The position numbers and the translations under genes are program-made. The notes under the pieces were generated by a model, which made no database searches, was not told the DNA's origin, and was given only the letters and a program-made list of their open reading frames with translations. Positions 15,511 through 42,613 of a stretch of 64,000 nt of DNA are shown here, piece after piece. Origin of the DNA: Antiquaquibacter oligotrophicus (GTDB taxonomy: Bacteria; Actinomycetota; Actinomycetes; Actinomycetales; Microbacteriaceae). The stretch is from the NCBI RefSeq assembly GCF_020535405.1, contig NZ_CP085036.1, forward strand, positions 2,418,001 through 2,482,000, written 5' to 3'. Numbering within the stretch: position 1 is the first letter of the stretch; the number at the start of each line of letters is the position of its first letter.

Positions 15511-15602
15511 CGGCTCCGCAGGATTCGGGCCCGGTGACTTCGGTCGCCGGGTCCGATCCCGTTAGCCGGAGTACTGCTCGCCCCGAGTCCTACGCTGGGG
15601 GG

Positions 15603-16367
15603 ATGCTCACTCTCTTCGCCCTCGACGGGATCCCCGAAATCGTTCCGGGGGACGACCTCGGTCAGATCATCGGCGATGCCGCGAGCGAGTTGCTCGACGG
15701 CGACATCGTGGTTGTGACGTCGAAGATCGTCAGCAAAGCCGAGGGACGGGTGGTGAATGCCACCGATCGCGAGGCCGCGATCGACGCCGAAACGGTGCGC
15801 ATCGTCGCGACGCGAGAGCACGCCGGAGGAGTCACGCGCATCGTCGAAACTCGCCAGGGTCTCGTGCTCGCCGCGGCCGGGGTCGACGCGTCGAACACTC
15901 CCGACGGCACCGTTCTGCTCCTGCCGGTGGACCCGGATGCCTCGGCGAACACGATCGCGCGAACCCTCCGTGATCGCTTCCGTGTCGCCGTAGGGGTGCT
16001 CGTCACGGACACCCTGGGACGCCCCTGGCGGGAAGGGCAGACGGATGTGGCGATCGGGGCGGCGGGCATCCGTGTGCTCGATGATCTGCGGGGAACCCGC
16101 GACTCGTCGGGGCGCCGGCTCGACGCGACAATCGCGGCCGTCGCCGACGAGATCGCTGGTGCCGCGGACCTCGTCAAAGGCAAAACGTCTGGTCGACCCG
16201 TTGCGATCGTTCGTGGCCTGGGTCATCTGGTGGGGTCGCTCGAGCTTCCCGGGGCCCGTGCGATCGTGCGGCCAGCCGCCGACGACATGTTTCGACTCGG
16301 GTCGGCGGAAGCGTGGGCCGAAGGCTTCCGTGCCGGCAGCTCTCGTGAGGAGGGAACCCGCGGGTAG
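15603..16367 (+). CDS. cofE: Coenzyme F420-0:L-glutamate ligase
   Basis: CofE (254 aa) adds gamma-linked glutamates to F420-0 using GTP, completing the deazaflavin cofactor F420. The N-terminal pattern [34 protein letters not shown] is family-specific, and [20 protein letters not shown] contains conserved active-site residues. Mycobacterial FbiB carries an extra C-terminal FMN-reductase domain; this protein stops at the CofE domain. The ATG follows TACGCT by 6 nt (leaderless pattern). cofC lies 360 nt downstream. Confidence 0.92.
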
Positions 16368-16726: not shown

Positions 16727-17302
16727 GTGCAGGAGTGGTCGGTGATTATCCCTGTCAAGGGCGCGCGGCAGGCGTCCAAATCGCGGTTCGGCCCCGGCGA
16801 CCATCGTGATCTCGCGCTCGCGATGGCGCTCGACACTGTCGCGGCAGCCCTCGTGGTCGCACCCGTAGTGGTGGTGACGGTGGGCGGTGCCGAGTTCCAG
16901 TCCCTCGGCGCGCGTGTGGTTCAGGATGCCGGACTGGGCCTGAACGCGGCGATCCAGTCTGGCCTTGCCGTTGTGGACGGCTCCACAACGGGCACGGTAG
17001 CGCTCTTGGCTGATCATCCCGCACTCCAGCCAACGGAGCTGCGGGAGGCTCTCGCTGCCGCGGAAGAGTTCGAGCGCTCGATGGTCGCCGACAGCGACGG
17101 TTCCGGGACGGCCCTCGTCGCAGCACGGGCCGGTGTGGGCCACGACCTGGCGTTCGGCGCCAACTCGCGCGCCGCTCATCGCGCTCGGGGGTACGTCGAA
17201 CTCGACGGCGGATGGCCTGGTCTCCGGCGCGATATCGATGTGCCAGACCACTTCGGCGGCCTCAACCTCGGCCCCCGCACTCTCGAGTTCGTCCAGCGCT
17301 GA
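16727..17302 (+). CDS. cofC: 2-phospho-L-lactate (or PEP) guanylyltransferase, F420 biosynthesis
   Basis: A 191-aa nucleotidyltransferase that activates 2-phospholactate or, in mycobacteria (FbiD), phosphoenolpyruvate with GTP for F420-0 assembly. The N-terminal VIIPVKGARQASKSRF is the GTP-binding signature, LLADHPALQP holds the metal-binding Asp, and the C-terminal ANSRAAHRARGYVEL and WPGLRRDIDVPDH blocks match the family. It starts with GTG 9 nt after the PLDc_N gene. Which substrate is used cannot be read from sequence by eye. Confidence 0.88.
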   Translation: MQEWSVIIPVKGARQASKSRFGPGDHRDLALAMALDTVAAALVVAPVVVVTVGGAEFQSLGARVVQDAGLGLNAAIQSGLAVVDGSTTGTVALLADHPALQPTELREALAAAEEFERSMVADSDGSGTALVAARAGVGHDLAFGANSRAAHRARGYVELDGGWPGLRRDIDVPDHFGGLNLGPRTLEFVQR

Positions 17303-21886: not shown

Positions 21887-23227
21887 CTATGCCCGCGACG
21901 CCGCGGCGAGGGCACTCGCGATCACCTCGACGTCGTCTCTGACGAGGCCGACCGTGACGCGCACGTGAGGTTCGCCCGCGACCAGCCGGAACGGCGACCC
22001 GGGAGCCACACGGATGCCCGCTGCCGCAAGACTCACGAGGGCCGCCCGCTCGTCGGCAACGGGCAGCCAGGCGTTGAGTCCGTCCCCGTCCGGGAGGTCA
22101 ACGTCGAAGGCTCGCATCGCCGCGCGGAATTCGTCCTGGCGCCGTGCGTAGGCGTCGCGTGCGGCGTCGATCTGGCCCACCGACTCCGGGGCGGTGAGGA
22201 GAGTGAAAAGAATCGACTGAACCATACGCGACGTCCACCCGGGGCCGAGGAGGCGGCGTGCGACGATGCGATCGACCAGATCACGGGGACCGCCGAGCGC
22301 ACCGATCCTGAGGTCAGGCCCGTGACTCTTTGAGAAGCTCCGGATGTGCAGCACACGCTCCGGCAGCCACGTGGCGAGGCTCACATCGGGCGCGGTCGAG
22401 ATCGCCCCGGAATGGTCGTCCTCGACCACCACGGTTGCCTGGGCGGTACGCGACCGGCGCAGAGCCCGAGCCAGTTGTTCCGCGCGGGACGGCGTCATCG
22501 ATACCCCTGTCGGGTTGTGTGCGCGGGGCTGCAGCAACACGATCGTGGGCGAAGCGCTCAGGGCCCGAGTGAACTGGTCGACCCGCATTCCGTCCGCGTC
22601 AAGAGCGACGGGGATGCCCTCGAGACCGTACTGCTCCAGCAGGTCGAGAAACGGCGGGAAGGTCGGATTCTCCACCACAACCCTGTCCCCGAAACGCACG
22701 AGTGAGGCAAGCACCCGATCGATGGCGTCGAGCGCACCATTGGTGACCGTGATCGATTCGACCGGAGCGGGCCAGGTATCCCTCAGCAGGTCGTGCAGGT
22801 GCGGGATGTCGGGCTTGAGCTGATAGCTCTGCGTGTCGGCGAGGGCGCCAGCGCGATCCAGCGCGATGCGGGGGAGAAGCTCGGGATCTGGGGTGCCACG
22901 AGAGAGGTCGAGGCGGGCATCCGTCTCGCCTTCAAAGTCGCGATAGCGCAACGGCAACCATTCGCGGGGCACTGCCCGCACGGTGCTTCCGCTGCGACCA
23001 CGCGTGACGATGAGCCCGGCCGCGGCAAGGGTCTGCCACGCGTGGGAGACCGTCGCGGGGCTGACCCCCAGTTCCGCGGCGAGGGCTCGCACGGTCGGTA
23101 GGCGGTCGCCCGGCGCGAGGTCGCCGGTTGTGATGAGCCGCGAGATTCCGGCCGCGATGCCTCGCGGTGTGGGCTCGTCGATCGCGAGGACTACCGACTT
23201 CACTCCGGCCCCCGTAGTGTTACGCAC
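21887..23227 (-). CDS. MocR-type regulator (GntR HTH fused to PLP aminotransferase domain)
   Basis: A 446-aa (or 438-aa from the GTG at 23203) MocR regulator. Residues about 20-85 form a GntR winged helix (LAPGDRLPTVRALAAELGVS). The remainder is a fold-type I aminotransferase domain with the PLP lysine in HIRSFSKSHGPDLRIGALGG. MocR proteins use PLP or amino-acid ligands as effectors. It diverges from the pyrimidine-catabolic operon and is the obvious candidate regulator. A palindrome covers the upstream start codon, which favours the downstream GTG. Confidence 0.9.
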   Translation of the reverse strand: MRNTTGAGVKSVVLAIDEPTPRGIAAGISRLITTGDLAPGDRLPTVRALAAELGVSPATVSHAWQTLAAAGLIVTRGRSGSTVRAVPREWLPLRYRDFEGETDARLDLSRGTPDPELLPRIALDRAGALADTQSYQLKPDIPHLHDLLRDTWPAPVESITVTNGALDAIDRVLASLVRFGDRVVVENPTFPPFLDLLEQYGLEGIPVALDADGMRVDQFTRALSASPTIVLLQPRAHNPTGVSMTPSRAEQLARALRRSRTAQATVVVEDDHSGAISTAPDVSLATWLPERVLHIRSFSKSHGPDLRIGALGGPRDLVDRIVARRLLGPGWTSRMVQSILFTLLTAPESVGQIDAARDAYARRQDEFRAAMRAFDVDLPDGDGLNAWLPVADERAALVSLAAAGIRVAPGSPFRLVAGEPHVRVTVGLVRDDVEVIASALAAASRA

Positions 23228-23263
23228 ACGTCATGAGGCGTAACGTTCGAGAAATGTTTACGC
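23219..23263. promoter_or_regulatory. Candidate MocR operator with three half-sites
   Basis: GTTACGC (23219-23225) and GCGTAAC (23238-23244) form a perfect 7-bp inverted repeat with a 12-nt spacer. A third related half-site, TTTACGC (23257-23263), follows in direct orientation to the first. The sites lie between the regulator and the first catabolic gene. Two or three half-sites are usual for MocR/GntR-type regulators. Confidence 0.5.
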
Positions 23264-23300
23264 TCCAGAATAACAAAGGCCAGTTGCAAGGAGAGCACCC

Positions 23301-24149
23301 ATGACCGTCATTCGCGCAGCGATCACCCAGACCACCTGGACGGGCGACAAAGAGTCCATGCTCGATAAGCACGAGCAGTTTGCGCGGGATGCCGCGGCCG
23401 ACGGAGCGCAGGTGATCTGCTTCCAGGAGCTCTTCTACGGCCCGTACTTCGGTATCACCGAAGACAAGAAGTACTACCGCTACGCGGAGCCGGCAGACGG
23501 CCCGATAGTTCAGAGATTTGCCGAGCTTGCGAAGGAGCTCGGCATTGTCATGATCCTCCCCATCTACGAGGAGGACATCACCGGGGTCTACTACAACACC
23601 GCCGTTGTGGTCGACGCTGACGGCACCATCCTCGGTAAGTACCGAAAGCACCACATCCCGCACCTTGACCGGTTCTGGGAGAAGTTCTACTTCCGCCCGG
23701 GCAACCTCGGCTACCCGGTTTTCGACACGGCGGTCGGCAAGATCGGTGTCTACATTTGCTACGACCGACACTTCCCCGAGGGATGGCGCGAGTTGGGCCT
23801 TAACGGCGCTCACATGGTCTTCAACCCCAACGCCACCAAGCCGGGCCTCTCGAACCGCCTGTGGGAGGTCGAAGGGCCCGCCGCCGCGGTCGCCAACGGC
23901 TACTTCGTGTTGCAGCCCAACCGCGTCGGTCGCGAAGACAACGAGTACGGCGACCTCGCGGTCGACTTCTACGGCACGAGCCAGATCATCGACCCGCGCG
24001 GCAACTTCGTCGGTGAGAAGGGATCCGGCGAGCACGAGGAGATCCTCATTCGCGACATCGACCTCGACATGGTCCAGCAGATGCGCGACGACTGGCAGTT
24101 CTACCGCGACCGCCGCCCCGAGTCCTACACGTCGATTCCGAAGCCGTAG
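23301..24149 (+). CDS. Nitrilase-superfamily N-carbamoyl hydrolase (beta-ureidopropionase-like)
   Basis: A 282-aa carbon-nitrogen hydrolase. The Glu-Lys-Cys triad is visible as E43 (CFQELFYGPYF), K116 (GKYRKHHIP) and C153 (YICYDRHFPEG). The HLDRFWEKFYFRPGN stretch is typical of beta-ureidopropionases and N-carbamoyl amino-acid hydrolases, which release CO2 and ammonia from N-carbamoyl-beta-alanine, the third step of reductive pyrimidine breakdown. AGGAG lies 8 nt before the ATG. First gene of the operon; hydantoin-derived substrates are an alternative. Confidence 0.88.
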   Translation: MTVIRAAITQTTWTGDKESMLDKHEQFARDAAADGAQVICFQELFYGPYFGITEDKKYYRYAEPADGPIVQRFAELAKELGIVMILPIYEEDITGVYYNTAVVVDADGTILGKYRKHHIPHLDRFWEKFYFRPGNLGYPVFDTAVGKIGVYICYDRHFPEGWRELGLNGAHMVFNPNATKPGLSNRLWEVEGPAAAVANGYFVLQPNRVGREDNEYGDLAVDFYGTSQIIDPRGNFVGEKGSGEHEEILIRDIDLDMVQQMRDDWQFYRDRRPESYTSIPKP

Positions 24150-24171
24150 CCGACAGCAGGAGGTAACAGCC

Positions 24172-25608
24172 ATGGCCACCACACTCATCACGGGAGGGAC
24201 GGTCGTCACGGCGACGGGCCGTTCCCTCGCGGACGTGCTCATCGACGGCGAGACGATCGTGGGCGTCCTGGCGCCGGGCTCGCAGCTGCTCGGTACGGAC
24301 CTCGCGGCATCCGTCGACACGGTCATCGACGCGACGGGCAAATACGTCATTCCCGGCGGCGTTGACGCCCACACCCACATGGAGTTGCCGTTCGGCGGCA
24401 CGTTCGCCTCGGACACCTTCGAGACCGGCACCCGCGCCGCCGCGTGGGGCGGAACGACAACGATCATCGACTTCGCCGTCCAGACCTACGGCGAGCGTGT
24501 GATGGATGGCCTTGCCGCGTGGCACGCGAAGGCCGCTGGCAATTGCGCCATCGACTATGCCTTCCACCAGATCATCGGCGAGGTCAACGACGACTCCTTG
24601 CAGGCGATGCGCGCGCTTCCCGAGGAAGGTGTCTCGAGCTTCAAGCTCTTCATGGCCTACCCGGGCGTGTTTTATTCGGATGACGCGCAGATTCTCAAGG
24701 CAATGCAGGTCTCGGCCGACACGGGTCTCATGACGATGATGCACGCCGAAAACGGGCCCGTCATCGACGTGCTGGCGGCCCAACTCATCGAGAAGGGCAA
24801 AACCGACCCGTACTTCCACGGAGTGGCGCGCGCCTGGCAGATGGAGGAGGAGGCCACCCACCGCGCGATCATGCTCGGCAACCTCACGGGTGCGCCGCTC
24901 TACGTCGTGCACGTCTCCGCCAAGCAGGCCGTTGAGCAGCTCGCGTGGGCCCGCGACAACGGACAGAACGTGTTCGGTGAGACGTGCCCGCAGTACCTGT
25001 ACCTCTCCCTCGAGGATCAGCTCGGGGCATCCAGCGAGGAGTGGGGCACCTTCGAGGGAGCCAAGTGGGTGTGTTCGACACCGTTGCGCTCCAAGCACGA
25101 GGGCCACCAGCACCACATGTGGCAAGCGTTGCGCACCAACGACATTCAGATGGTCTCCACGGATCACTGCCCGTTCTGCATGAAGGGCCAGAAAGACCTG
25201 GGACTCGATGACTTCCGAAAAATCCCCAACGGTATCGGCTCGGTCGAGCACCGCATGGATCTGCTCTACCAGGGTGTCGTGACGGGGCAACTCACCCTCG
25301 AACGCTGGGTGGAGGTCACCTCGACGACTCCCGCGCGCATGTTCGGGCTCTACGGCAAAAAGGGTGTCATCCAGCCGGGCGCCGACGCGGACATCGTTGT
25401 GTACGACCCCAACGGCCACACCTCGATCGGCGTGGGAAAAACCCACCACATGAACATGGACTACTCGGCCTGGGAGGGTTACGAGATCGACGGTCACGTC
25501 GACACCGTGCTCTCCCGCGGCAAGGTCATCGTCGACGACAACCAGTACCTGGGTGCCAAGGGCGACGGCCAGTTCGTCAAGCGCGGACTCTCGCAGTACC
25601 TGATCTAA
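24172..25608 (+). CDS. hydA: Dihydropyrimidinase / hydantoinase
   Basis: A 478-aa cyclic amidohydrolase opening dihydrouracil, dihydrothymine or hydantoin rings. The binuclear metal site is complete: VDAHTHME supplies two His, SSFKLFMAYPG the carbamylated Lys, MMHAENG and YVVHVSAKQ the further His, and STDHCPFC the Asp. The ATG at 24172 follows AGGAGG with good spacing and lies 22 nt after the hydrolase gene. With its neighbours it forms the middle step of pyrimidine degradation. Confidence 0.93.
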   Translation: MATTLITGGTVVTATGRSLADVLIDGETIVGVLAPGSQLLGTDLAASVDTVIDATGKYVIPGGVDAHTHMELPFGGTFASDTFETGTRAAAWGGTTTIIDFAVQTYGERVMDGLAAWHAKAAGNCAIDYAFHQIIGEVNDDSLQAMRALPEEGVSSFKLFMAYPGVFYSDDAQILKAMQVSADTGLMTMMHAENGPVIDVLAAQLIEKGKTDPYFHGVARAWQMEEEATHRAIMLGNLTGAPLYVVHVSAKQAVEQLAWARDNGQNVFGETCPQYLYLSLEDQLGASSEEWGTFEGAKWVCSTPLRSKHEGHQHHMWQALRTNDIQMVSTDHCPFCMKGQKDLGLDDFRKIPNGIGSVEHRMDLLYQGVVTGQLTLERWVEVTSTTPARMFGLYGKKGVIQPGADADIVVYDPNGHTSIGVGKTHHMNMDYSAWEGYEIDGHVDTVLSRGKVIVDDNQYLGAKGDGQFVKRGLSQYLI

Positions 25609-25616
25609 GGAACACC

Positions 25617-26642
25617 ATGGAATTCGGTGCAGTACTCCAGACCCACCCGCCGGCATCACGCACGGTGTATCTCGCCAAGCTCGCGGAGCAGTACGGCTTC
25701 GAGTACGTGTGGACGTTCGACTCTCACCTCCTCTGGGAGGAGCCCTACGTCATCTACTCCGCGATCCTCGCCCAGACCCACCGGGTGATCGTTGGCCCCA
25801 TGGTGACGAACCCCGCCACACGCGACTGGACGGTCACGGCATCCGTCTTCGCAACACTCAACGAGATGTACGGCAATCGCACCATCATCGGTATCGGCCG
25901 TGGCGATTCGGCCGTACGAGTGACGAACGGTAAGCCGACAACTCTCGCCGAGTTGCGCGAATCGATTCACGTCATCCGGGAGCTCGCCAACTCGCGCTCC
26001 GTCGACTACAACGGCGCTGAGTTGCGCTTCCCGTGGTCGAAGGGCTCAGAGGTCGACGTATGGGTTGCCGCCTACGGTCCGCTCGCCCTCAAACTCACGG
26101 GCGAGGTGGGTGACGGGTTCATCCTCCAGCTCGCCGATCTCGACATCGCCGAATGGATGATCAAGACGGTTCGGGATGCCGCGGAGAAGGCCGGCCGTGA
26201 CCCCATGTCTGTGAAATTCTGCGTCGCCGCCCCCATGTACATCGGGGACGACTGGGACCACATGCGCGAGCAGACCCGCTGGTTCGGTGGCATGGTTGGC
26301 AACCACGTGGCCGACATCGTCGCCAAGTACGGCACGGATGGCGCGGTACCGAAGGCCCTGACCGACTACATCGCCGCACGCCAGGGTTACGACTACAACG
26401 AACACGGTCAGGCGGGTAACACCCACACCGACTTCGTGCCGGACGAGATCGTCGACCGATTTTGCGTGCTCGGCTCGGCGGCGGACCACATCGAGAAGCT
26501 CAAGGCCCTCAAGGAGCTGGGTGTCGACCAGTTCGCTGGCTACCTGCAGCACGACAACAAGGAAGAGACCCTCCGCGTGTACGGCGAGACGGTGATGCCC
26601 GCACTGCGCGAGCACGTCATCGCCAAGAAAACCGACGCATGA
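25617..26642 (+). CDS. LLM-class (luciferase-like, F420-dependent type) oxidoreductase
   Basis: A 341-aa TIM-barrel protein of the luciferase-like superfamily, close to the methylene-tetrahydromethanopterin reductase/TIGR03842-type branch. Features are AEQYGFEYVWTFDSHLLWEE, MVTNPATRDWTVTASVFATL and GIGRGDSAVR. Many members use F420, others FMN. It sits 8 nt after dihydropyrimidinase and overlaps the permease start by 4 nt, so it is part of the operon. No dihydropyrimidine dehydrogenase is encoded in the window. The inferred role is the redox step on the pyrimidine ring; a RutA-like oxygenase role is the alternative. Confidence 0.85.
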   Translation: MEFGAVLQTHPPASRTVYLAKLAEQYGFEYVWTFDSHLLWEEPYVIYSAILAQTHRVIVGPMVTNPATRDWTVTASVFATLNEMYGNRTIIGIGRGDSAVRVTNGKPTTLAELRESIHVIRELANSRSVDYNGAELRFPWSKGSEVDVWVAAYGPLALKLTGEVGDGFILQLADLDIAEWMIKTVRDAAEKAGRDPMSVKFCVAAPMYIGDDWDHMREQTRWFGGMVGNHVADIVAKYGTDGAVPKALTDYIAARQGYDYNEHGQAGNTHTDFVPDEIVDRFCVLGSAADHIEKLKALKELGVDQFAGYLQHDNKEETLRVYGETVMPALREHVIAKKTDA

Positions 26643-27544
26643 GCGAACGCGCCCGTAGCATTCTGCGATCCACCCTCCTCGGGATCGCCGGTGTGCTCGC
26701 GCTCGTTGCCATCTGGGAGTTGTACAAGTTTTTGGGACCGCAGGAGGGTGTTGTCATCGGGTCGGTCGAAGGGGAAACCGGCTCGGGCGTCATGATCCTG
26801 CCGCGCACCAACGACCGTGCCATGCCGCACGTGTGGGAGATGGTCGCGAGGCTCGGTCAGTCAGCGAGTGGTGGCAACACCCCGCCGCTCATCGTGCCCG
26901 TCGTCACCGCTGCGCTCACGACGCTCGGTATCGCGGCGGTGGGGTGGATCATCGGTGTTGCTGTCGGCATCGTGCTGGGTGTCGTCATGCAGCGGTGGCG
27001 CCTGGCCGAATGGGGTCTCCTGCCCTGGATCGTCGTCAGCCAGACGGTGCCGCTCATCGCGTTCGCACCGGTGGTCAACAGCATCGGGTTGCAGATCGAT
27101 CGCGGCGGCACCCCGTGGCCGCAATGGCTGTCGGTGGCGGTGATCGCCTCCTATCTCGCATTTTTCCCCGTCGCCGTGGGAGTGCTCCGCGGGCTCGAGT
27201 CGCCCGACAGCATTCACCGCGACCTTATGCGCACCTACGCGGCCGGGTACTGGCAGACGCTCTTCCGGCTGCGGTTCCCCGCCGCCGTTCCGCACCTGTT
27301 GCCGGCGCTTCGACTCGCGGCCGCCAGCGCCGTCGTCGGAGCCGTTGTCGCGGAAGTGTCGATCGGCATGCGCGGCGGAATCGGGCGGATGCTCATCCAG
27401 CTTGCCGGGCAGGGCTCGAGTGACCCGGCAGCACCGTGGGGGCCCGTGTTCGGCGCGATCGCCCTCGGCCTCGTCGCCGTTGGGTCCGTCGCCATCGTCG
27501 GGCTCGGTCTGAAGAACTACCGCAGGGGAGAAGCCACAGCGTGA
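26639..27544 (+). CDS. ABC transporter permease
   Basis: A 301-aa BPD_transp_1-type permease with about six membrane helices. The cytoplasmic EAA loop reads MRTYAAGYWQTLFRLRFPAA. Its N-terminal half carries an unusual insertion (GVVIGSVEGETGSGVMILPR, residues about 37-56) before the second helix. It overlaps the oxidoreductase stop by 4 nt. With the next three genes it forms a taurine/nitrate/thiamine-precursor-type importer, and the operon context points to a pyrimidine or hydantoin substrate. Confidence 0.88.
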   Translation: MSERARSILRSTLLGIAGVLALVAIWELYKFLGPQEGVVIGSVEGETGSGVMILPRTNDRAMPHVWEMVARLGQSASGGNTPPLIVPVVTAALTTLGIAAVGWIIGVAVGIVLGVVMQRWRLAEWGLLPWIVVSQTVPLIAFAPVVNSIGLQIDRGGTPWPQWLSVAVIASYLAFFPVAVGVLRGLESPDSIHRDLMRTYAAGYWQTLFRLRFPAAVPHLLPALRLAAASAVVGAVVAEVSIGMRGGIGRMLIQLAGQGSSDPAAPWGPVFGAIALGLVAVGSVAIVGLGLKNYRRGEATA

Positions 27545-28350
27545 ACGACAAGACAGCCAGCGAGGCGCTCGCGGTTCGGGCATCCGGTGTCGGCAAGATC
27601 TTCCCCGCGCGCGAGGGCGACGTCACGGCACTCCTCGGGGTTGACCTCGAGGTGCGCGACGGCGAGTTCGTCTCGCTCATCGGCCCGTCCGGGTGTGGCA
27701 AGTCCACGCTGTTGCGGCTCATCGCCGACCTCGACCCGGCGAGTTCGGGCGAGCTCACGATCTTCGGAAAACCCGCCCGCCAGGCGCGCGTCGACCAGGA
27801 CTACGGCATCGCGTTCCAACAAGCGGGTCTGCTGCCGTGGCGCACCGTCGCCGGCAACATCGCCCTCCCGCTCGAACTGCACAAGGTCGACCGCACCGAG
27901 CGTGCATCACGGGTAGCTGAACTGGCCGAACTCGTCGGCCTCACGGAGTTCGTCGACCGCTACCCCGACCAGCTCTCGGGAGGAATGCAGCAGCGTGTCG
28001 CCATTGCGCGAGCCCTGGCTTCCCGGCCCCGGCTCCTGCTCATGGACGAGCCGTTCGGCGCCCTCGACGAGATGACACGCGAATACCTCCAGTCCGAGCT
28101 CGCGCGCATCGCCGCCGAGACCGGGGCGGCCGTGGTATTCGTCACGCACTCCATTCCCGAGGCGGTGTTCCTGTCGGATCGGGTTGTCGTCATGAGCCCG
28201 CGTCCCGGCCGCATCACACACATCGTCGAGACCGACCTCGGGCCGAATCGCGATGAGACGCTCCGGGAGTCACCCGAGTACTTCGACCGCGTCACCGCGG
28301 TTCGCGAGGCGCTGCACGGTGCCCCCGTCGAGAGGGCGAACGAGCGGTGA
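27541..28350 (+). CDS. ABC transporter ATP-binding protein
   Basis: A 269-aa ATPase of the SsuB/TauB/ThiZ type. Walker A is GPSGCGKSTLLR, the Q-loop is IAFQQAGLLPWRT, the signature is LSGGMQQRVAIARAL, Walker B is LLLMDEPFGALDEMT and the H-loop is FVTHSIPEA. The GTG start overlaps the upstream permease stop by 4 nt. It powers the importer formed with the two flanking permeases. Confidence 0.94.
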   Translation: MNDKTASEALAVRASGVGKIFPAREGDVTALLGVDLEVRDGEFVSLIGPSGCGKSTLLRLIADLDPASSGELTIFGKPARQARVDQDYGIAFQQAGLLPWRTVAGNIALPLELHKVDRTERASRVAELAELVGLTEFVDRYPDQLSGGMQQRVAIARALASRPRLLLMDEPFGALDEMTREYLQSELARIAAETGAAVVFVTHSIPEAVFLSDRVVVMSPRPGRITHIVETDLGPNRDETLRESPEYFDRVTAVREALHGAPVERANER

Positions 28351-29132
28351 CCCTCCGACAGGATGCCCCGGCCAGCTACCCGCAGTGGGTGCGTGTTGTC
28401 GCGCCCATCGCCGTCGGGGTGCTGGGTCTTGCCGTGTGGACCCTCTACGTGGACGTTTTGGGTGCCGCACCTCGGATGCTCCCGAGCCCGCTCGCGATCC
28501 TCGAGGAGTTCGTGAAGCGCTGGGACATCATCTGGGCGGCGATGACGGTGACGGCCACGAACGCTCTCGTGGGGCTCGCGGCGGGTGCCATCATCGCGAT
28601 CGTGCTCGCGGGAATCGCGGCATCGTTCCGAACGGTCGACGGGATGCTCGCACCACTCGTCGCGGCGCTCGCCGTGATCCCGATCGTCGCCCTCACACCC
28701 ATCTTCAACACCATGTTCGGCGCGTCGAGCCAGTTCGGGCGCCAGGCCGTTGCCGCGATCGCCGCCTTCATTCCCGTTTTCGTCAATGTGCTGCGCGGAC
28801 TGCTGCAGACGAGACCCGTGCACCGCGACCTCCTGAGGGCATCCGCGGCCACCCCCGGCCAGACATTCCGCACGCTCACACTTCCGACCGCGCTCCCGTA
28901 CCTCATGACGGGATTGCGGATCGCGAGTTCGCTCGCCGTGATCGCCGCCCTCGTCGCCGAGTACTTCGGCGGTCCCGCCGACGGGGTGGGTACGGCGATC
29001 GCGAGCTACGCGAAGTCCGGCAGGGCAACCCTCGCGTGGGCGTTCGTCGGCGGGGGCATCCTCATCGGCCTCGTATTCTTCCTCGTTACGTCGCTCCTGG
29101 AGCGGCTCGTGACGAGGCGACCGCCGGTCTGA
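28347..29132 (+). CDS. ABC transporter permease
   Basis: A 261-aa permease with about six helices and an EAA loop LRASAATPGQTFRTLTLPTA. It differs clearly from the first permease, so the transporter core is a heterodimer, as in RibXY/ThiX-like importers with two permease genes. The GTG start overlaps the ATPase stop by 4 nt. Confidence 0.92.
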   Translation: MTLRQDAPASYPQWVRVVAPIAVGVLGLAVWTLYVDVLGAAPRMLPSPLAILEEFVKRWDIIWAAMTVTATNALVGLAAGAIIAIVLAGIAASFRTVDGMLAPLVAALAVIPIVALTPIFNTMFGASSQFGRQAVAAIAAFIPVFVNVLRGLLQTRPVHRDLLRASAATPGQTFRTLTLPTALPYLMTGLRIASSLAVIAALVAEYFGGPADGVGTAIASYAKSGRATLAWAFVGGGILIGLVFFLVTSLLERLVTRRPPV

Positions 29133-29181
29133 CCGGCACTCCCTTCACAGCACCACCTAGGCACCACGAAAGGACAACAGC

Positions 29182-30348
29182 ATGAGACTCCGCACTCGGC
29201 GCGGCATCGCCGCGCTCTCGGCTGCCGCGATCACCGCACTCGCGTTGACAGCTTGCGCAGCCCCGGCGGCTGACGACTCCGCATCAGGGGACTTCGAGCC
29301 GCTCACCGACATCAAGCTGCAGCTGCAGTGGCTGCCGCAGGCGCAGTTCGCGGGCTACTACGTGGCACTCGACCAGGGCTACTTCGAGGAGGAGGGCTTC
29401 GACTCCGTCGAGGTTCTCCCGTCGGGTGGCGACATCGTTCCCCAGGACGCGCTTGTCGCGGGCGACGTGGACTTCGCGATCGCGTGGGTGCCGAAGGTGC
29501 TCGGAACACTCGAGGCGCAGGGGGTCGAACTGACGAACATCGCGCAGGTGTTCCAGGACTCCGGCACCCTTCAGGTGTCGTGGGCCGACAGCGGCATCGA
29601 GTCGGTCGCCGACTTCGAAGGCAAGCGCATCGGCTCGTGGGGCTTCGGTAACGAGTGGGAGATCTTCGCCGCGATGGCGGCGGAGGGCCTCGACTCGACG
29701 TCGGTGTCGATCACCACGCAGGACTTCAGCATGAACGCCCTGCTCGACCGGGACGTCGACGCAGCCCAGGCGATGACCTACAACGAGTGGGCGCAGATTC
29801 TCGAGGTCGTGAACCCGGCAACGGGCGAGCTGTACCAGCCGGAGGACTTCAACGTCATCTCGTACGCGGACACCGAGGGTGCCATGCTGCAGGACGCGAT
29901 CTGGGCAGACACGGCTCGACTCGCCGATGACCCCGCCTACGCGGACGCCGCCGTGCGCTTCCTCAAGGCCGTCATCAAGGGCTGGGTGTTCGCTCGCGAC
30001 AACCCGGAGGAGGCGGCAGACATCACGTACAACGCGGCCATCGAAGCCGAGGCTGCCTTCCCCGTCGGCCCGACCCACCAGCTGTGGCAGATGAACGAGG
30101 TGAACAAGCTCATCTGGACCGGTGGCGAGTTCGGCCTCATCGACCCGGCCGCGTGGGACAAGACGGTTGCTGGCGCACTCTCGGCCACCAACCAGGACGG
30201 TCTGGAACTCATCACCACCGAGCCGCCGGCATCCGCCTACTCGAACGACTACATCGAGCAGGCCCTTGCGGCACTCGCCGAGGAGGGTGTCGTCGTTGAC
30301 GGCGAGTACACCCCGATCGACGTCGTCCTCACCGAGGGCGGCCAGTAA
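29182..30348 (+). CDS. ABC transporter substrate-binding lipoprotein (NMT1/THI5-like)
   Basis: A 388-aa lipoprotein. The signal peptide has a twin-Arg-like start (MRLRTRRGIAALSAAAITAL) and a lipobox LTAC at about residues 22-25. The mature part begins with KLQLQWLPQAQFAGYYVALD, the hallmark of NMT1/THI5-like proteins that bind pyrimidine-related ligands such as hydroxymethyl- or formylaminopyrimidine and riboflavin precursors. AAAGGAC precedes the ATG. The ligand is probably a pyrimidine or a reduced derivative. Confidence 0.9.
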   Translation: MRLRTRRGIAALSAAAITALALTACAAPAADDSASGDFEPLTDIKLQLQWLPQAQFAGYYVALDQGYFEEEGFDSVEVLPSGGDIVPQDALVAGDVDFAIAWVPKVLGTLEAQGVELTNIAQVFQDSGTLQVSWADSGIESVADFEGKRIGSWGFGNEWEIFAAMAAEGLDSTSVSITTQDFSMNALLDRDVDAAQAMTYNEWAQILEVVNPATGELYQPEDFNVISYADTEGAMLQDAIWADTARLADDPAYADAAVRFLKAVIKGWVFARDNPEEAADITYNAAIEAEAAFPVGPTHQLWQMNEVNKLIWTGGEFGLIDPAAWDKTVAGALSATNQDGLELITTEPPASAYSNDYIEQALAALAEEGVVVDGEYTPIDVVLTEGGQ

Positions 30349-30354
30349 CACTCC

Positions 30355-30392
30355 GCTCGGGTGGGGTGGGAACAGCCCCGCCCCACCCGAGC
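30355..30392. terminator. Strong hairpin between the binding-protein and transaminase genes
   Basis: GCTCGGGTGGGG (30355-30366) pairs perfectly with CCCCACCCGAGC (30381-30392), a 12-bp GC-rich stem with a 14-nt loop. No T-run follows. The transaminase gene starts 21 nt later. A processing or 3'-end stabilising hairpin that raises binding-protein mRNA level, common after such genes, is as likely as termination. Confidence 0.55.
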
Positions 30393-30413
30393 ACCGAACA
30401 GAAAGCACCACCC

Positions 30414-31748
30414 ATGAACGACCAGCTCGCGAATCTCGACCCCGCCGACGGTGACCTCGCCTACGAACTCGACCGTGCCCACGTCTTCCACTCGTGGTCG
30501 GCGCAAGGCGCCCTCAAACCTCTCGTCATCGCCGGGGGTGCCGGATGCGAGGTGTGGGACTACGCCGGTACCCGCTACCTCGACTTCTCGAGCCAGCTCG
30601 TCAACACGAACATCGGCCACCAGCATCCGGCCGTCGTCGACGCCATCAAGAAGCAGGCGGACATCCTCACGACTATCGCCCCCGCCACGGCAAACCTCGC
30701 TCGTGGCGAGGCAGCCAAGCGAATCCTCGCGCGCGCCGGATCGCACTTCGGCAAGGTCTTCTTCACCAACGGCGGTGCGGATGCCAACGAAAACGCCATC
30801 CGCATGGCGCGACTGACCACGGGGCGCGACAAGGTGCTTTCGGCCTACCGGTCGTACCACGGCAACACGGGCGCAGCGATCGTCGCCACGGGTGACTGGC
30901 GCCGTGTGCCTAACGAGTACTCGCGGGGCCACGCCCACTTCTTCGGACCGTTCGCGTACCGCAGCGACTTCTGGTCGGAGACGCCGGAGCAGGAGACCGA
31001 GCGCGCACTCCACCACCTCGAGCGGGTCGTCGTCTCTGAGGGCGCAGCCTCGATCGCTGCGATCCTCCTCGAGACCGTCCCCGGCACGGCCGGTGTGCTC
31101 GTTCCGCCGCCCGGATACCTGCAGGGTGTTCGCGAGCTGTGCGACAAGTACGGCATCGTGCTCATCTTCGATGAGGTCATGTGCGGCTTCGGGCGCACGG
31201 GCGAGTGGTTCGCGTGGCAGGGATTCGGCGTGACCCCGGACCTCATCACCTTCGCGAAGGGGGTCAACTCCGGATATGTGCCGATCGGTGGTGTCGTGAT
31301 CTCCGAGTCCATCGCGAACGCGTTCGAGGATCAGGTGTTCCCCGGTGGGCTCACCTACTCCGGGCATCCGTTGGCCGCCGCATCCGTTGTCGCCGCGCTC
31401 GACGCGATGGAGAGCGAGGGCATCGTGGAGAACGCCAAGTCCATTGGGGCCGAGCACCTCGGCCCGGGGCTCGCGGCACTCGCGGAGAAGCATCCGCTCA
31501 TCGGAGAGGTACGCGGGCTCGGCGTCTTCTGGGCGCTCGATCTCGTCGACGACCCCGAGACGCGGCAGCCCATCTCGGCAGGCCTTATGGGTGCCCTCAA
31601 GACGGCGCTGGTCTCCCGCGGTCTCCTGCCGTTTGTCGCCGACAACCGTATCCACGTCGTGCCGCCGTGCATCGTGACCCCTGACGAGGTCGCGAAGGCG
31701 CTCGCCATCTACGACGAGGCCTTCACCGAGGTCGAGTCGACGCTCTAG
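30414..31748 (+). CDS. Class III (omega) aminotransferase, probable beta-alanine transaminase
   Basis: A 444-aa PLP enzyme of the class III family. The PLP-binding Lys is K282 in TFAKGVNSGYVPIGG; upstream are YHGNTGAAIVATGDWRR and IFDEVMCGFGRTGEWFAWQG. It is close to beta-alanine/4-aminobutyrate transaminases. As last gene of the pyrimidine operon it would convert beta-alanine (from uracil) or 3-aminoisobutyrate (from thymine) to a semialdehyde. Start ATG 30414 gives MNDQLANLDPADGD. Confidence 0.9.
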   Translation: MNDQLANLDPADGDLAYELDRAHVFHSWSAQGALKPLVIAGGAGCEVWDYAGTRYLDFSSQLVNTNIGHQHPAVVDAIKKQADILTTIAPATANLARGEAAKRILARAGSHFGKVFFTNGGADANENAIRMARLTTGRDKVLSAYRSYHGNTGAAIVATGDWRRVPNEYSRGHAHFFGPFAYRSDFWSETPEQETERALHHLERVVVSEGAASIAAILLETVPGTAGVLVPPPGYLQGVRELCDKYGIVLIFDEVMCGFGRTGEWFAWQGFGVTPDLITFAKGVNSGYVPIGGVVISESIANAFEDQVFPGGLTYSGHPLAAASVVAALDAMESEGIVENAKSIGAEHLGPGLAALAEKHPLIGEVRGLGVFWALDLVDDPETRQPISAGLMGALKTALVSRGLLPFVADNRIHVVPPCIVTPDEVAKALAIYDEAFTEVESTL

Positions 31749-39983: not shown

Positions 39984-41660
39984 TCAGCCGAGTCGTTTGG
40001 TCTCGGCCGGCAGTACCCGCAACCAGCGATAGTCGTAGCCGTCGAGGGGAATCGTGATGGTGCCGTCCCCGTCGTAGGACATGGTGCGGTCGTTCACGAG
40101 AAGATCGACGAGTGTGCTGCCGTGTTCCATCCCCTCGAGCGCGAGTGTGACCGTCGCTGGTTCGGGTGCGAAGTTGTGGAGTGCGAGCATCCGCCCCTCC
40201 TCGCCGGTGAGGGTGTGTGCGAGCACGGTCGGGGCGTCGTGGTCGTACACCTCGCACTGGCCCCAACCCATCTCCGCGGATGCCCGATACCGCTCGATGA
40301 TGCGTTTCATGAAGTTCAGCATCGAGTCGTCGTCGTGGCGCTGGTCGGTGGCGTTCACGTGTTCGGGACCGTACGCACCCTCCGTCACGGGCCTCACGAG
40401 CTTCCGCCGCGGTGCGTGGGAGAAGCCGCCGCCAGCTTCGTTCGTCCACTGCATGGGGGTTCGTACTCCGGTGCGATCGTCTAGATCCGGGTTCTCGCCC
40501 ATCCCGATTTCTTCGCCGTAGTACAGCACCGGGGTGCCCGGGAGGCTGAACATGAGGCTGTAGGCCATCCGCACGCGCCGAGGGTCGCCGCCGAGCATGG
40601 GCGGCAACCGACGCGTGATGCCGCGTCCGTGGAATCGCATCTCCGGTTCCGGGGCGAAGGCGTCGAAGACTTCGTCACGCTCGGACTCGCTCAGTTTGTC
40701 GAGGGTGAGCTCGTCGTGGTTGCGCACGAAGTTGGCCCACTGCGACTCGATGGCGATGTCGGGTCGGGCCTTCAAAGCCTCGACGAGTGGCGTTGGATCT
40801 TGGCGGGCGAGGGCGAGATACATCTGCTGGTTGGCGACGAAGTCGAACTGCATGGTGAGGCCGTCGCCGTCGCTCCCGCCGAAGTACGCGACCTGTTCGT
40901 CGTGCGGGATGTTGGCCTCTCCGAGCATCATCGCGTCACCGGAACGCCGGCCGAGGAAGGCACGGAGCGACTTGAGGAAGTCGAGGGGGTCGTCGAGGGC
41001 ACCGGGCGCGTCCTCGGCGCCGGAATGGTCGATGAGGAAGGGGACGGCGTCAACCCTGAACCCCGAGACGCCCAACTGCAACCAGAAGCCCATGATTTTG
41101 GCCACGGCATCCCGAACTGCGGGGTTGGTCACGTTGAGGTCTGGCTGGAACGAGTAGAACCGATGTTGGTAGTACTGCTCGGCCTTCTCGTCGTAGCTCC
41201 AGATGCCGTCCTCCACGTCGGGGAACTCGTTCTGCTCCTTGGTACGCGGTGTGCGGTCGCGCCACACGTAGAAGTCGCGGTACGGCGACTCGGGGTCGGA
41301 GCGGGCGGCTGTGAACCACGGATGCTGGTCCGACGTGTGATTGACGACGAGGTCGACGATGACCCGGATGCCCCGATCCTCCGCCATGCGGATCATCTCC
41401 ACGAAGTCGCCCAAATCCCCGAGCTCCCGGCGAATTCCGTAGTACTCGGACACGTCGTACCCATCGTCACCGCCCGGGCTCGGGTAGAACGGCATGAGCC
41501 ACAGGCACGTGACGCCCAGTTCCTGTAGATAGTCGATGCGGTGGGCGAGGCCCGCGAAGTCGCCGACACCGTCATCGTCGTAGTCGAGGAAAGTCGCGAC
41601 ATCGAGGCAGTAGATGACAGCCGACTTCCACCACAGGTCACTCGTGTCGGTGATCCTCAT
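39984..41660 (-). CDS. GH13 alpha-amylase family protein (trehalose-synthase-like), first paralogue
   Basis: Also 558 aa and colinear with the downstream protein: the catalytic residues fall at the same positions (D204, E248, D316). The ATG at 41660 starts MRITDTSDLWWKS, and the ORF is open far upstream but only noise precedes this start. It overlaps the LLM oxidoreductase stop by 4 nt. The sequences diverge mainly in the insert after D204 and the C-terminal beta domain, suggesting duplication and substrate divergence. Confidence 0.88.
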   Translation of the reverse strand: MRITDTSDLWWKSAVIYCLDVATFLDYDDDGVGDFAGLAHRIDYLQELGVTCLWLMPFYPSPGGDDGYDVSEYYGIRRELGDLGDFVEMIRMAEDRGIRVIVDLVVNHTSDQHPWFTAARSDPESPYRDFYVWRDRTPRTKEQNEFPDVEDGIWSYDEKAEQYYQHRFYSFQPDLNVTNPAVRDAVAKIMGFWLQLGVSGFRVDAVPFLIDHSGAEDAPGALDDPLDFLKSLRAFLGRRSGDAMMLGEANIPHDEQVAYFGGSDGDGLTMQFDFVANQQMYLALARQDPTPLVEALKARPDIAIESQWANFVRNHDELTLDKLSESERDEVFDAFAPEPEMRFHGRGITRRLPPMLGGDPRRVRMAYSLMFSLPGTPVLYYGEEIGMGENPDLDDRTGVRTPMQWTNEAGGGFSHAPRRKLVRPVTEGAYGPEHVNATDQRHDDDSMLNFMKRIIERYRASAEMGWGQCEVYDHDAPTVLAHTLTGEEGRMLALHNFAPEPATVTLALEGMEHGSTLVDLLVNDRTMSYDGDGTITIPLDGYDYRWLRVLPAETKRLG

Positions 41661-42613
41661 GCGGCGAACTCCGGCAGCACGTTCTGCGCGTAGGTGTCGA
41701 TGAAGGGTTTCTGGTTCTTGCCCACGTGATGCACGTAGACCGAATCGAACCCGAGGTCCAGATAGCGGCGGAGGGTGTCCCGATGCACCGCGGGATCGGA
41801 GGACACCAGCACACCCTGCGCGACGTCCTCGGGTCGGACCCGCTCGGACGCTACCTCGAACGCTTCGACCGTCTCCAGGTCCCACGAGACGGGGGCCGCG
41901 AACGTGTTGTTGCGCCACTGATCGAACGCGATCTCCAGGGCCTCGGCATCCGTCGGCGCCCACGAGACGTGCACCTGAACGATAAGCGGGCCGGCGCCCC
42001 CGCCATCGCGATAGGCGTCGATGACACGCGTGAGGTCGTCGTCGGGCTGGGCGACGGTGGCGAGGCCGTCGGCCCAACCGCCCGCCCAACGTGCCGTTTC
42101 GGCGCTCACGGCCGCGGCAAGGAGTTGCGGCTTCTGCTGAGGGAGGGTCCACAGTTTGGCGCGATCCACGGTGACGAGCCCGTCGTGACTGACGACCTCG
42201 CCGTCGAACAGCGCGCGCATCACCTCAACACATTCGAGCAGGCGCTGGTTGCGGAGTTCTTTGCGCGGCCATCCCTCACCGGTGATGTGCTCGTTGAGGG
42301 CCTCGCCGGATCCGAGTGCCACCCACACCCTGCCCTCGTACATCTGCCCGAGGGTGGCGAGAGCTTGAGCGATGATGGCCGGGTGGTAGCGCTGGCCGGG
42401 TGCGTTGACGGCGCCGAACGAGAGGCTCGTCGCCTGCAGCGCCGAGCCGAGCCAGCTCCAGGCGAACCCCGATTCGCCCTGCCGTTCGCTCCACGGCGCG
42501 AAGTGATCCGAACACATTGCCGCCTCAAAGCCAGCGGATTCTGCGAGCTGCACCGCTTCCAGCAGGCTCGCGGGCGACAGTTGCTCGTGGGATGCGTGAA
42601 AGCCGATTGCCAT
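41657..42613 (-). CDS. LLM-class oxidoreductase (TIGR03885-like)
   Basis: A 318-aa luciferase-like protein. The opening IGFHASHEQLSPASLLEAVQ, AMCSDHFAPWSERQGESGFA and NAPGQRYHPAIIAQALATLG are typical of the TIGR03885-type clade, described as possibly having reverted from F420 to a flavin. A sugar-phosphate dehydrogenase-like role has been assumed for relatives. It leads the operon with the two GH13 genes, overlapping the first by 4 nt, so its substrate may be a trehalose- or maltose-derived sugar. Confidence 0.85.
   Translation of the reverse strand: MAIGFHASHEQLSPASLLEAVQLAESAGFEAAMCSDHFAPWSERQGESGFAWSWLGSALQATSLSFGAVNAPGQRYHPAIIAQALATLGQMYEGRVWVALGSGEALNEHITGEGWPRKELRNQRLLECVEVMRALFDGEVVSHDGLVTVDRAKLWTLPQQKPQLLAAAVSAETARWAGGWADGLATVAQPDDDLTRVIDAYRDGGGAGPLIVQVHVSWAPTDAEALEIAFDQWRNNTFAAPVSWDLETVEAFEVASERVRPEDVAQGVLVSSDPAVHRDTLRRYLDLGFDSVYVHHVGKNQKPFIDTYAQNVLPEFAA

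Follow-up and report, generated by a model that had tools for sequence, protein, structure and literature searches.

A predicted F420H2-dependent luciferase-like reductase at the first step of pyrimidine degradation in Antiquaquibacter oligotrophicus and other bacteria

Reductive pyrimidine degradation is known to begin with the flavin/iron-sulfur dehydrogenase PreTA (PydA), and a separate enzyme acting on pyrimidines, RutA of the luciferase-like (LLM) superfamily, depends on flavin mononucleotide (FMN) and O2. The low potential of the deazaflavin cofactor F420 would favour reduction. In the mureidomycin system, a putative F420/FMN oxidoreductase is needed for the reduction of the uracil C5-C6 bond, as shown by knockout and nuclear magnetic resonance (PMC10714638). 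According to the available sections of a 2021 review, why Proteobacteria and Chloroflexi make F420 was an unanswered question, and Paracoccus denitrificans contained only trace F420 (PMC8498797). The subject here is an operon within 64,000 nucleotides of Antiquaquibacter oligotrophicus (contig NZ_CP085036.1, positions 2,418,001 to 2,482,000, forward strand), called the window, in which an LLM oxidoreductase of family TIGR03842 stands beside dihydropyrimidinase. Gene content, gene order, family membership and genome co-occurrence were obtained for it, and it is read, with a probability of about 0.83, as a reductive pyrimidine degradation operon whose LLM enzyme uses F420H2 to reduce C5-C6 of uracil, and probably of thymine, in place of PreTA.

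The genes concerned are arranged as follows.

21887-23227, minus strand: divergent MocR-type regulator (GntR plus aminotransferase-like; Pfam GntR and Aminotran_1_2 above cut-offs)
23228-23300, no strand: candidate promoter/operator region for divergent transcription of regulator and operon, proposed from the intergenic sequence
23301-24149, plus strand: CN-hydrolase (Pfam CN_hydrolase), predicted beta-ureidopropionase (N-carbamoyl-beta-alanine amidohydrolase)
24172-25608, plus strand: dihydropyrimidinase (TIGR02033, 541.8 bits, cut-off 393.25)
25617-26642, plus strand: TIGR03842 LLM oxidoreductase (591.4 bits), predicted F420H2-dependent uracil/thymine reductase
26639-27544, plus strand: ABC permease (BPD_transp_1)
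27541-28350, plus strand: ABC ATPase (ABC_tran)
28347-29132, plus strand: ABC permease (BPD_transp_1)
29182-30348, plus strand: NMT1/THI5-like substrate-binding lipoprotein (PF09084, 114.8 bits), predicted pyrimidine binder
30366-31748, plus strand: class III aminotransferase (NF004718), predicted beta-alanine (3-aminoisobutyrate) transaminase
15534-16367, plus strand: CofE, F420-0:glutamate ligase (TIGR01916, 240.3 bits, cut-off 180.65), cofactor supply, outside the operon
16727-17302, plus strand: CofC/FbiD-type guanylyltransferase of F420 synthesis (TIGR03552, 107.9 bits, cut-off 105)

Every gene named by the initial annotation, which was made from the window alone, was found where it had been placed, and its estimate that cofE and cofC lie about 10 kb from the LLM gene is borne out by distances of 9.2 kb and 8.3 kb from their ends to that gene. 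The plus-strand genes from the CN-hydrolase onward are spaced by 22, 8, -4, -4, -4, 49 and 17 bases in order, which would suit a single transcription unit; the true start of the aminotransferase may be a later in-frame ATG. The best NCBIfam model for the MocR-type regulator is PtsJ, at 266 bits and under its cut-off of 573.

Residues 2-330 of the LLM protein align with positions 1-329 of the 329-position TIGR03842 model (cut-off 295.45), a family (F420_CPS_4043) that NCBIfam lists as a hypothetical equivalog with no assigned function. Among solved structures Mer, the F420-dependent methylenetetrahydromethanopterin reductase, is nearest in both sequence and fold, and scores of 141.9 bits (cut-off 276) and 140.2 bits (cut-off 348.7) against the Mer models place the protein outside that family. 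The 15 top structural matches of its model are all F420 enzymes, although fold by itself is no proof of cofactor. Both fold and nearest relative are thus those of F420-dependent luciferase-like hydride transferases, and TIGR03842 proteins are predicted to bind and use F420.

The host genome (2.9 Mb, one contig, 97.4% complete) lacks the PreTA/PydA hallmark of the reductive pathway: its one DHO_dh-family match is a quinone-type PyrD above cut-off, and a profile search with NF006183, identified as the PreA model through E. coli PreA, gave no match, so that the absence of a dihydropyrimidine dehydrogenase, first remarked for the window, holds genome-wide. A check for fbiA and fbiC had also been proposed, and F420 genes were found. 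FbiC is a 762-residue frame whose CofG part is above cut-off; its CofH part (295 bits, cut-off 374) and the whole-FbiC model (915 against 1018) are both below. CofD, CofE and CofC are above their cut-offs, giving the host its own F420 synthesis genes.

Under the preferred reading, the ABC importer would take up the base, the LLM enzyme would pass a hydride from F420H2 to C5-C6 to yield dihydrouracil, dihydropyrimidinase would open the ring, the CN-hydrolase would release beta-alanine, ammonia and CO2, and the aminotransferase would take the amino group from beta-alanine. In Proteobacteria with NpdG, electrons would flow from NADPH through F420H2 to the pyrimidine. From the genes we infer what the substrate is, that the cofactor is bound, which way the enzyme runs and what each step of this pathway does.

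Proteobacterial loci join cofactor synthesis and the LLM gene directly. On a Leisingera plasmid, cofG-cofH-cofD-cofC-cofE-npdG-LLM is oriented divergently to genes for a transhydrogenase, an aminotransferase, an M20 hydrolase, a dihydropyrimidinase and NCS1, and on a Paracoccus alcaliphilus plasmid the cof-npdG-LLM set is followed by an ABC importer. Eighty named loci were compared, the best of 576 confirmed candidates by similarity to a Leisingera protein and not a random sample. In 34 of them LLM is accompanied by cofG, H, D, E and npdG, and 33 of these have the order cofG-H-D-C-E-npdG-LLM; 21 of the 34 add a dihydropyrimidinase or carbamoyl-hydrolase gene (dihydropyrimidinase in 14). An F420 gene is present at 56 of the 80 loci, a pyrimidine gene at 45, both at 28 and either at 73; PreA is present at none, and transhydrogenase genes lie near the LLM gene at nine. 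The aminotransferases of Leisingera and Halopseudomonas score above cut-off as AptA-type enzymes. The window and a Leisingera plasmid supplied the dihydropyrimidinase queries; those for the M20 hydrolase, NCS1, the energy-coupling factor (ECF) transporter, aldehyde dehydrogenase, two aminotransferases, Fgd and the importer were drawn from counted loci, so that the numbers for these genes take in the loci of origin. For L132 and L133 the pyrimidine link consists of 30-33% matches, which the strict counts of neighbours and of full gene sets omit. One record counted among the 33, L122 (JAHVJD010000013.1), is titled Nocardioides marinus, and its cof-npdG-LLM operon is 98% identical to Leisingera; the record is probably mislabelled or contaminated.

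A draw across Pseudomonadota found the LLM gene in 2 of 349 genomes, centre included, a number too small to test co-occurrence, and the test was therefore made within the family of P. denitrificans. CofG occurs there in 8 of 198 genomes, all eight within the nine that carry the LLM gene (Fisher 1.8e-13, or 3.9e-12 without the centre; the Fisher values given here ignore relatedness among genomes). In the ninth, G806, the LLM gene has npdG and cofE as neighbours, and P. denitrificans itself, a harmless laboratory organism, has the complete island and gave no match to PreA. The initial annotation had suggested that the LLM enzyme performs the pyrimidine-reducing step, perhaps with F420H2, and this is supported, as far as sequence comparison goes, by the host F420 genes, the lack of a PreA match and the proteobacterial co-encoding of cof, npdG and LLM.

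In Actinomycetota, TIGR03842 is above cut-off in 79 of 396 genomes, and CofG is present in 66 of these 79 against 125 of the 317 others (Fisher 7e-13); CofD is present in 8 of the 13 CofG-free ones, including two complete genomes, G225 among them, that are related to the window's family. The 79 loci examined for neighbours come from 78 genomes, excluding the window's own locus and two small above-cut-off fragments (G106:C26 and G227:C40). Conservation of the LLM gene beside dihydropyrimidinase, which had been put forward as a check, is indeed seen: dihydropyrimidinase is near at 57 of the 79 loci, a carbamoyl hydrolase at 68 and PreA at none, and the same count gave no match for any of the three in 20 control stretches of 19 kb, placed by hand in 20 of the same genomes. 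The association is judged to be above chance because the neighbourhood recurs across families and phyla and the controls gave none. One large family has an M20 carbamoylase-type hydrolase (TIGR01879 above cut-off) together with an NCS1 permease and, in some cases, an ECF transporter, and others have the CN-hydrolase and ABC importer as partners; since differing hydrolases and transporters surround the same LLM and dihydropyrimidinase genes, one conserved pathway is suggested. PreA occurs in 2 of the 396 genomes, neither among the 79, a non-overlap that alone is not significant because PreA is rare across the phylum.

Two further observations concern these loci. Some actinobacterial metagenome-assembled genomes (MAGs) have ECF genes (QueT/riboflavin-type S component, CbiQ) downstream of the LLM gene, as at L038 5189-6835, and the S component occurs at 5 of the 79 loci. 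The complete, CofG-free genome G225 (L121) groups cofE, cofC, an Fgd-like gene, an importer and cofD at about 7.0-15.7 kb, some 10-20 kb from the pyrimidine operon; the importer is 54-59% identical to a putative F420-0 importer. In this single-contig genome the LLM gene (G225:C1:2193491-2194476) is split over two frames (profile 1-66 and 64-329), which points either to a disrupted gene or to an error of sequencing.

The solved relatives of the dihydropyrimidinase, assigned by TIGR02033, are D-hydantoinases and dihydropyrimidinases, and by sequence reading it carries metal-site motifs, as the CN-hydrolase carries Glu/Lys/Cys motifs. The best solved relatives of the CN-hydrolase are Drosophila 2vhh, presumably a beta-ureidopropionase (183.7 bits), a plant N-carbamoylputrescine amidohydrolase (181.5) and human beta-ureidopropionase (about 169.5), a near tie between the two activities; against the AguB model it scores 246 bits, under the cut-off of 410, and it is predicted to be a beta-ureidopropionase because operon context decides. 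The aminotransferase scores 740.8 bits against NF004718 (cut-off 472), which leaves its subfamily unnamed, and its best solved relative is the taurine:2-oxoglutarate aminotransferase 6jix; enzymes of this type also act on beta-alanine. Relatives of the NMT1 binding protein include the N-formyl-4-amino-5-aminomethyl-2-methylpyrimidine binder 3ix1 (E 6.6e-12).

It is unlikely, though the best surviving alternative, that a related ring is reduced by the enzyme and degraded by the operon instead, whether hydantoin-like, purine-derived, a 5-substituted pyrimidine or a thiamine pyrimidine. Thiamine-pyrimidine binders do occur among NMT1 binding proteins, a single model covers D-hydantoinase and dihydropyrimidinase, and the accessible part of PMC12507026 proposes an F420-type LLM enzyme for a urate intermediate in Chloroflexota. 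However, omega-amino aminotransferases, the NCS1 nucleobase-type permeases found elsewhere and beta-ureidopropionase-like hydrolases fit uracil and thymine, and no purine-pathway genes were noted, though no search was aimed at them.

Nineteen LLM genomes have a locus free of cofG; CofG is found elsewhere in ten of them and has no match in nine, namely three Devosia, one Pelagibacterium, four Chloroflexi and one MAG titled Pleurocapsa. At nine of the 80 named loci, of Devosia type (L167-L172, L176, L180 and L199; Devosia, a Hyphomicrobiales MAG and Pelagibacterium), CofE and an importer lie beside TIGR03842, with an Fgd gene in eight. At L168 (11175-15868) the binding protein of the ABC importer next to CofE is above the cut-off of TIGR03868, the "putative F420-0 ABC transporter". 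Judged from these genes, such loci point to precursor import and are candidates for living on imported deazaflavin. The Pleurocapsa minor-titled record, L197 (JAHHHY010000023.1), pairs a Chloroflexi-like LLM gene with dihydropyrimidinase, has no CofG match and is possibly contamination.

Several facts weigh against an F420-dependent replacement of PreTA. The main one against F420 is the Chloroflexi, where all four MAGs tested, like the Pleurocapsa-titled one, have LLM and dihydropyrimidinase and no CofG match. Five actinobacterial LLM assemblies (190-570 contigs) have no match for either CofG or CofD, and the cof genes of the window lie outside the pyrimidine operon. The three CofG-free Devosia and the Pelagibacterium have no pyrimidine genes within 10 kb of LLM; neither pyrimidine nor F420 neighbours are present at 7 of the 80 named loci and 11 of the 79 actinobacterial ones, two of the latter being full 19-kb stretches. 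PreA is above cut-off in 4 of 31 LLM genomes, and two of these cases (L173 and L181) also hold the full cof-npdG-LLM set with dihydropyrimidinase, so there the LLM enzyme would be an addition and not a replacement. The mureidomycin oxidoreductase, moreover, showed no activity in vitro (PMC10714638).

The presence of the LLM gene in five MAGs that have no CofG match, four of them Chloroflexi, together with a fold common to both cofactor types, would suit an enzyme that reduces the pyrimidine with FMNH2 or another flavin. This is considered improbable, since F420 synthesis and NpdG are co-encoded with LLM in 33 of the 80 named loci, LLM occurs in 8 of 8 CofG genomes of the P. denitrificans family, the F420-0 importer and Fgd adjoin it in CofG-free Devosia, and the closest structures are F420 enzymes. 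Still less probable is an operon that imports already reduced substrates such as dihydrouracil or hydantoins, with the LLM protein serving an unrelated role: dihydropyrimidinases accept hydantoins, to judge from the model name, but across many lineages, with differing partners, LLM is found next to genes for dihydropyrimidinase, a carbamoyl hydrolase or a transporter, and this account gives neither the LLM protein nor its F420 linkage any function. The RutA-like oxygenase raised by the initial annotation, which would use O2 to open the ring, is very improbable and was set aside, as the best match is TIGR03842, far above cut-off, the RutA family is absent from the protein's 25 NCBIfam matches and RutA ranks below the F420 enzymes in structural Z, the RutA product would be no substrate for dihydropyrimidinase, and no other Rut genes were noted, though they were not searched for.

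A second LLM protein is encoded in the window at 41657-42613 (minus strand), near alpha-amylase/trehalose-synthase-like open reading frames. It belongs to TIGR03885 (476 bits, cut-off 399), labelled FMN-dependent yet nested with F420 glucose-6-phosphate dehydrogenases.

With F420H2-dependent pyrimidine reduction as the preferred reading, a broader proposal, for which the odds stand about level, is that TIGR03842 is an F420H2:pyrimidine reductase family and that island-bearing Proteobacteria make F420 chiefly or only for that step, through a portable module of a cofactor factory and its single consumer, some Rhizobiales having a deazaflavin importer instead. If true, a named orphan family would gain a function, and pyrimidine degradation a third type of first step. 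It would also make the question why Proteobacteria and Chloroflexi make F420 open to testing, could explain F420 outside the well-known groups, and a pyrimidine-induced operon would explain the trace F420 in P. denitrificans. Full-text literature searches, with subscription papers and preprints outside their scope, found no statement of an F420-dependent first step of pyrimidine degradation; the accessible parts of PMC8097209 and PMC9045290 do not cover the topic, and a term search of PMC7332683 gave no match.

Set beside the described systems, the operon shares with the PreTA/PydA pathway the same downstream genes, with beta-ureidopropionase as predicted, and the same predicted overall chemistry, and differs in having no PreA or PreT and an LLM protein of unrelated fold at the first-step position. 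RutA resembles the LLM protein in superfamily and in acting on pyrimidine, but its family is not the one matched and its Z is lower, and Mer differs in that the protein scores under its cut-offs and another substrate is expected. Membership in TIGR03842 is clear, and pyrimidine reduction is newly proposed for this function-less family. The mureidomycin enzyme and the proposed Chloroflexota urate LLM protein are the nearest precedents. In the accessible part of PMC12507026, the urate pathway likewise has a proposed F420 LLM enzyme in place of a PydA/YgfK-type reductase, acting on a uracil-like ring; it differs in being a purine pathway of Chloroflexota only and not one for pyrimidines, with the family given simply as PF00296.

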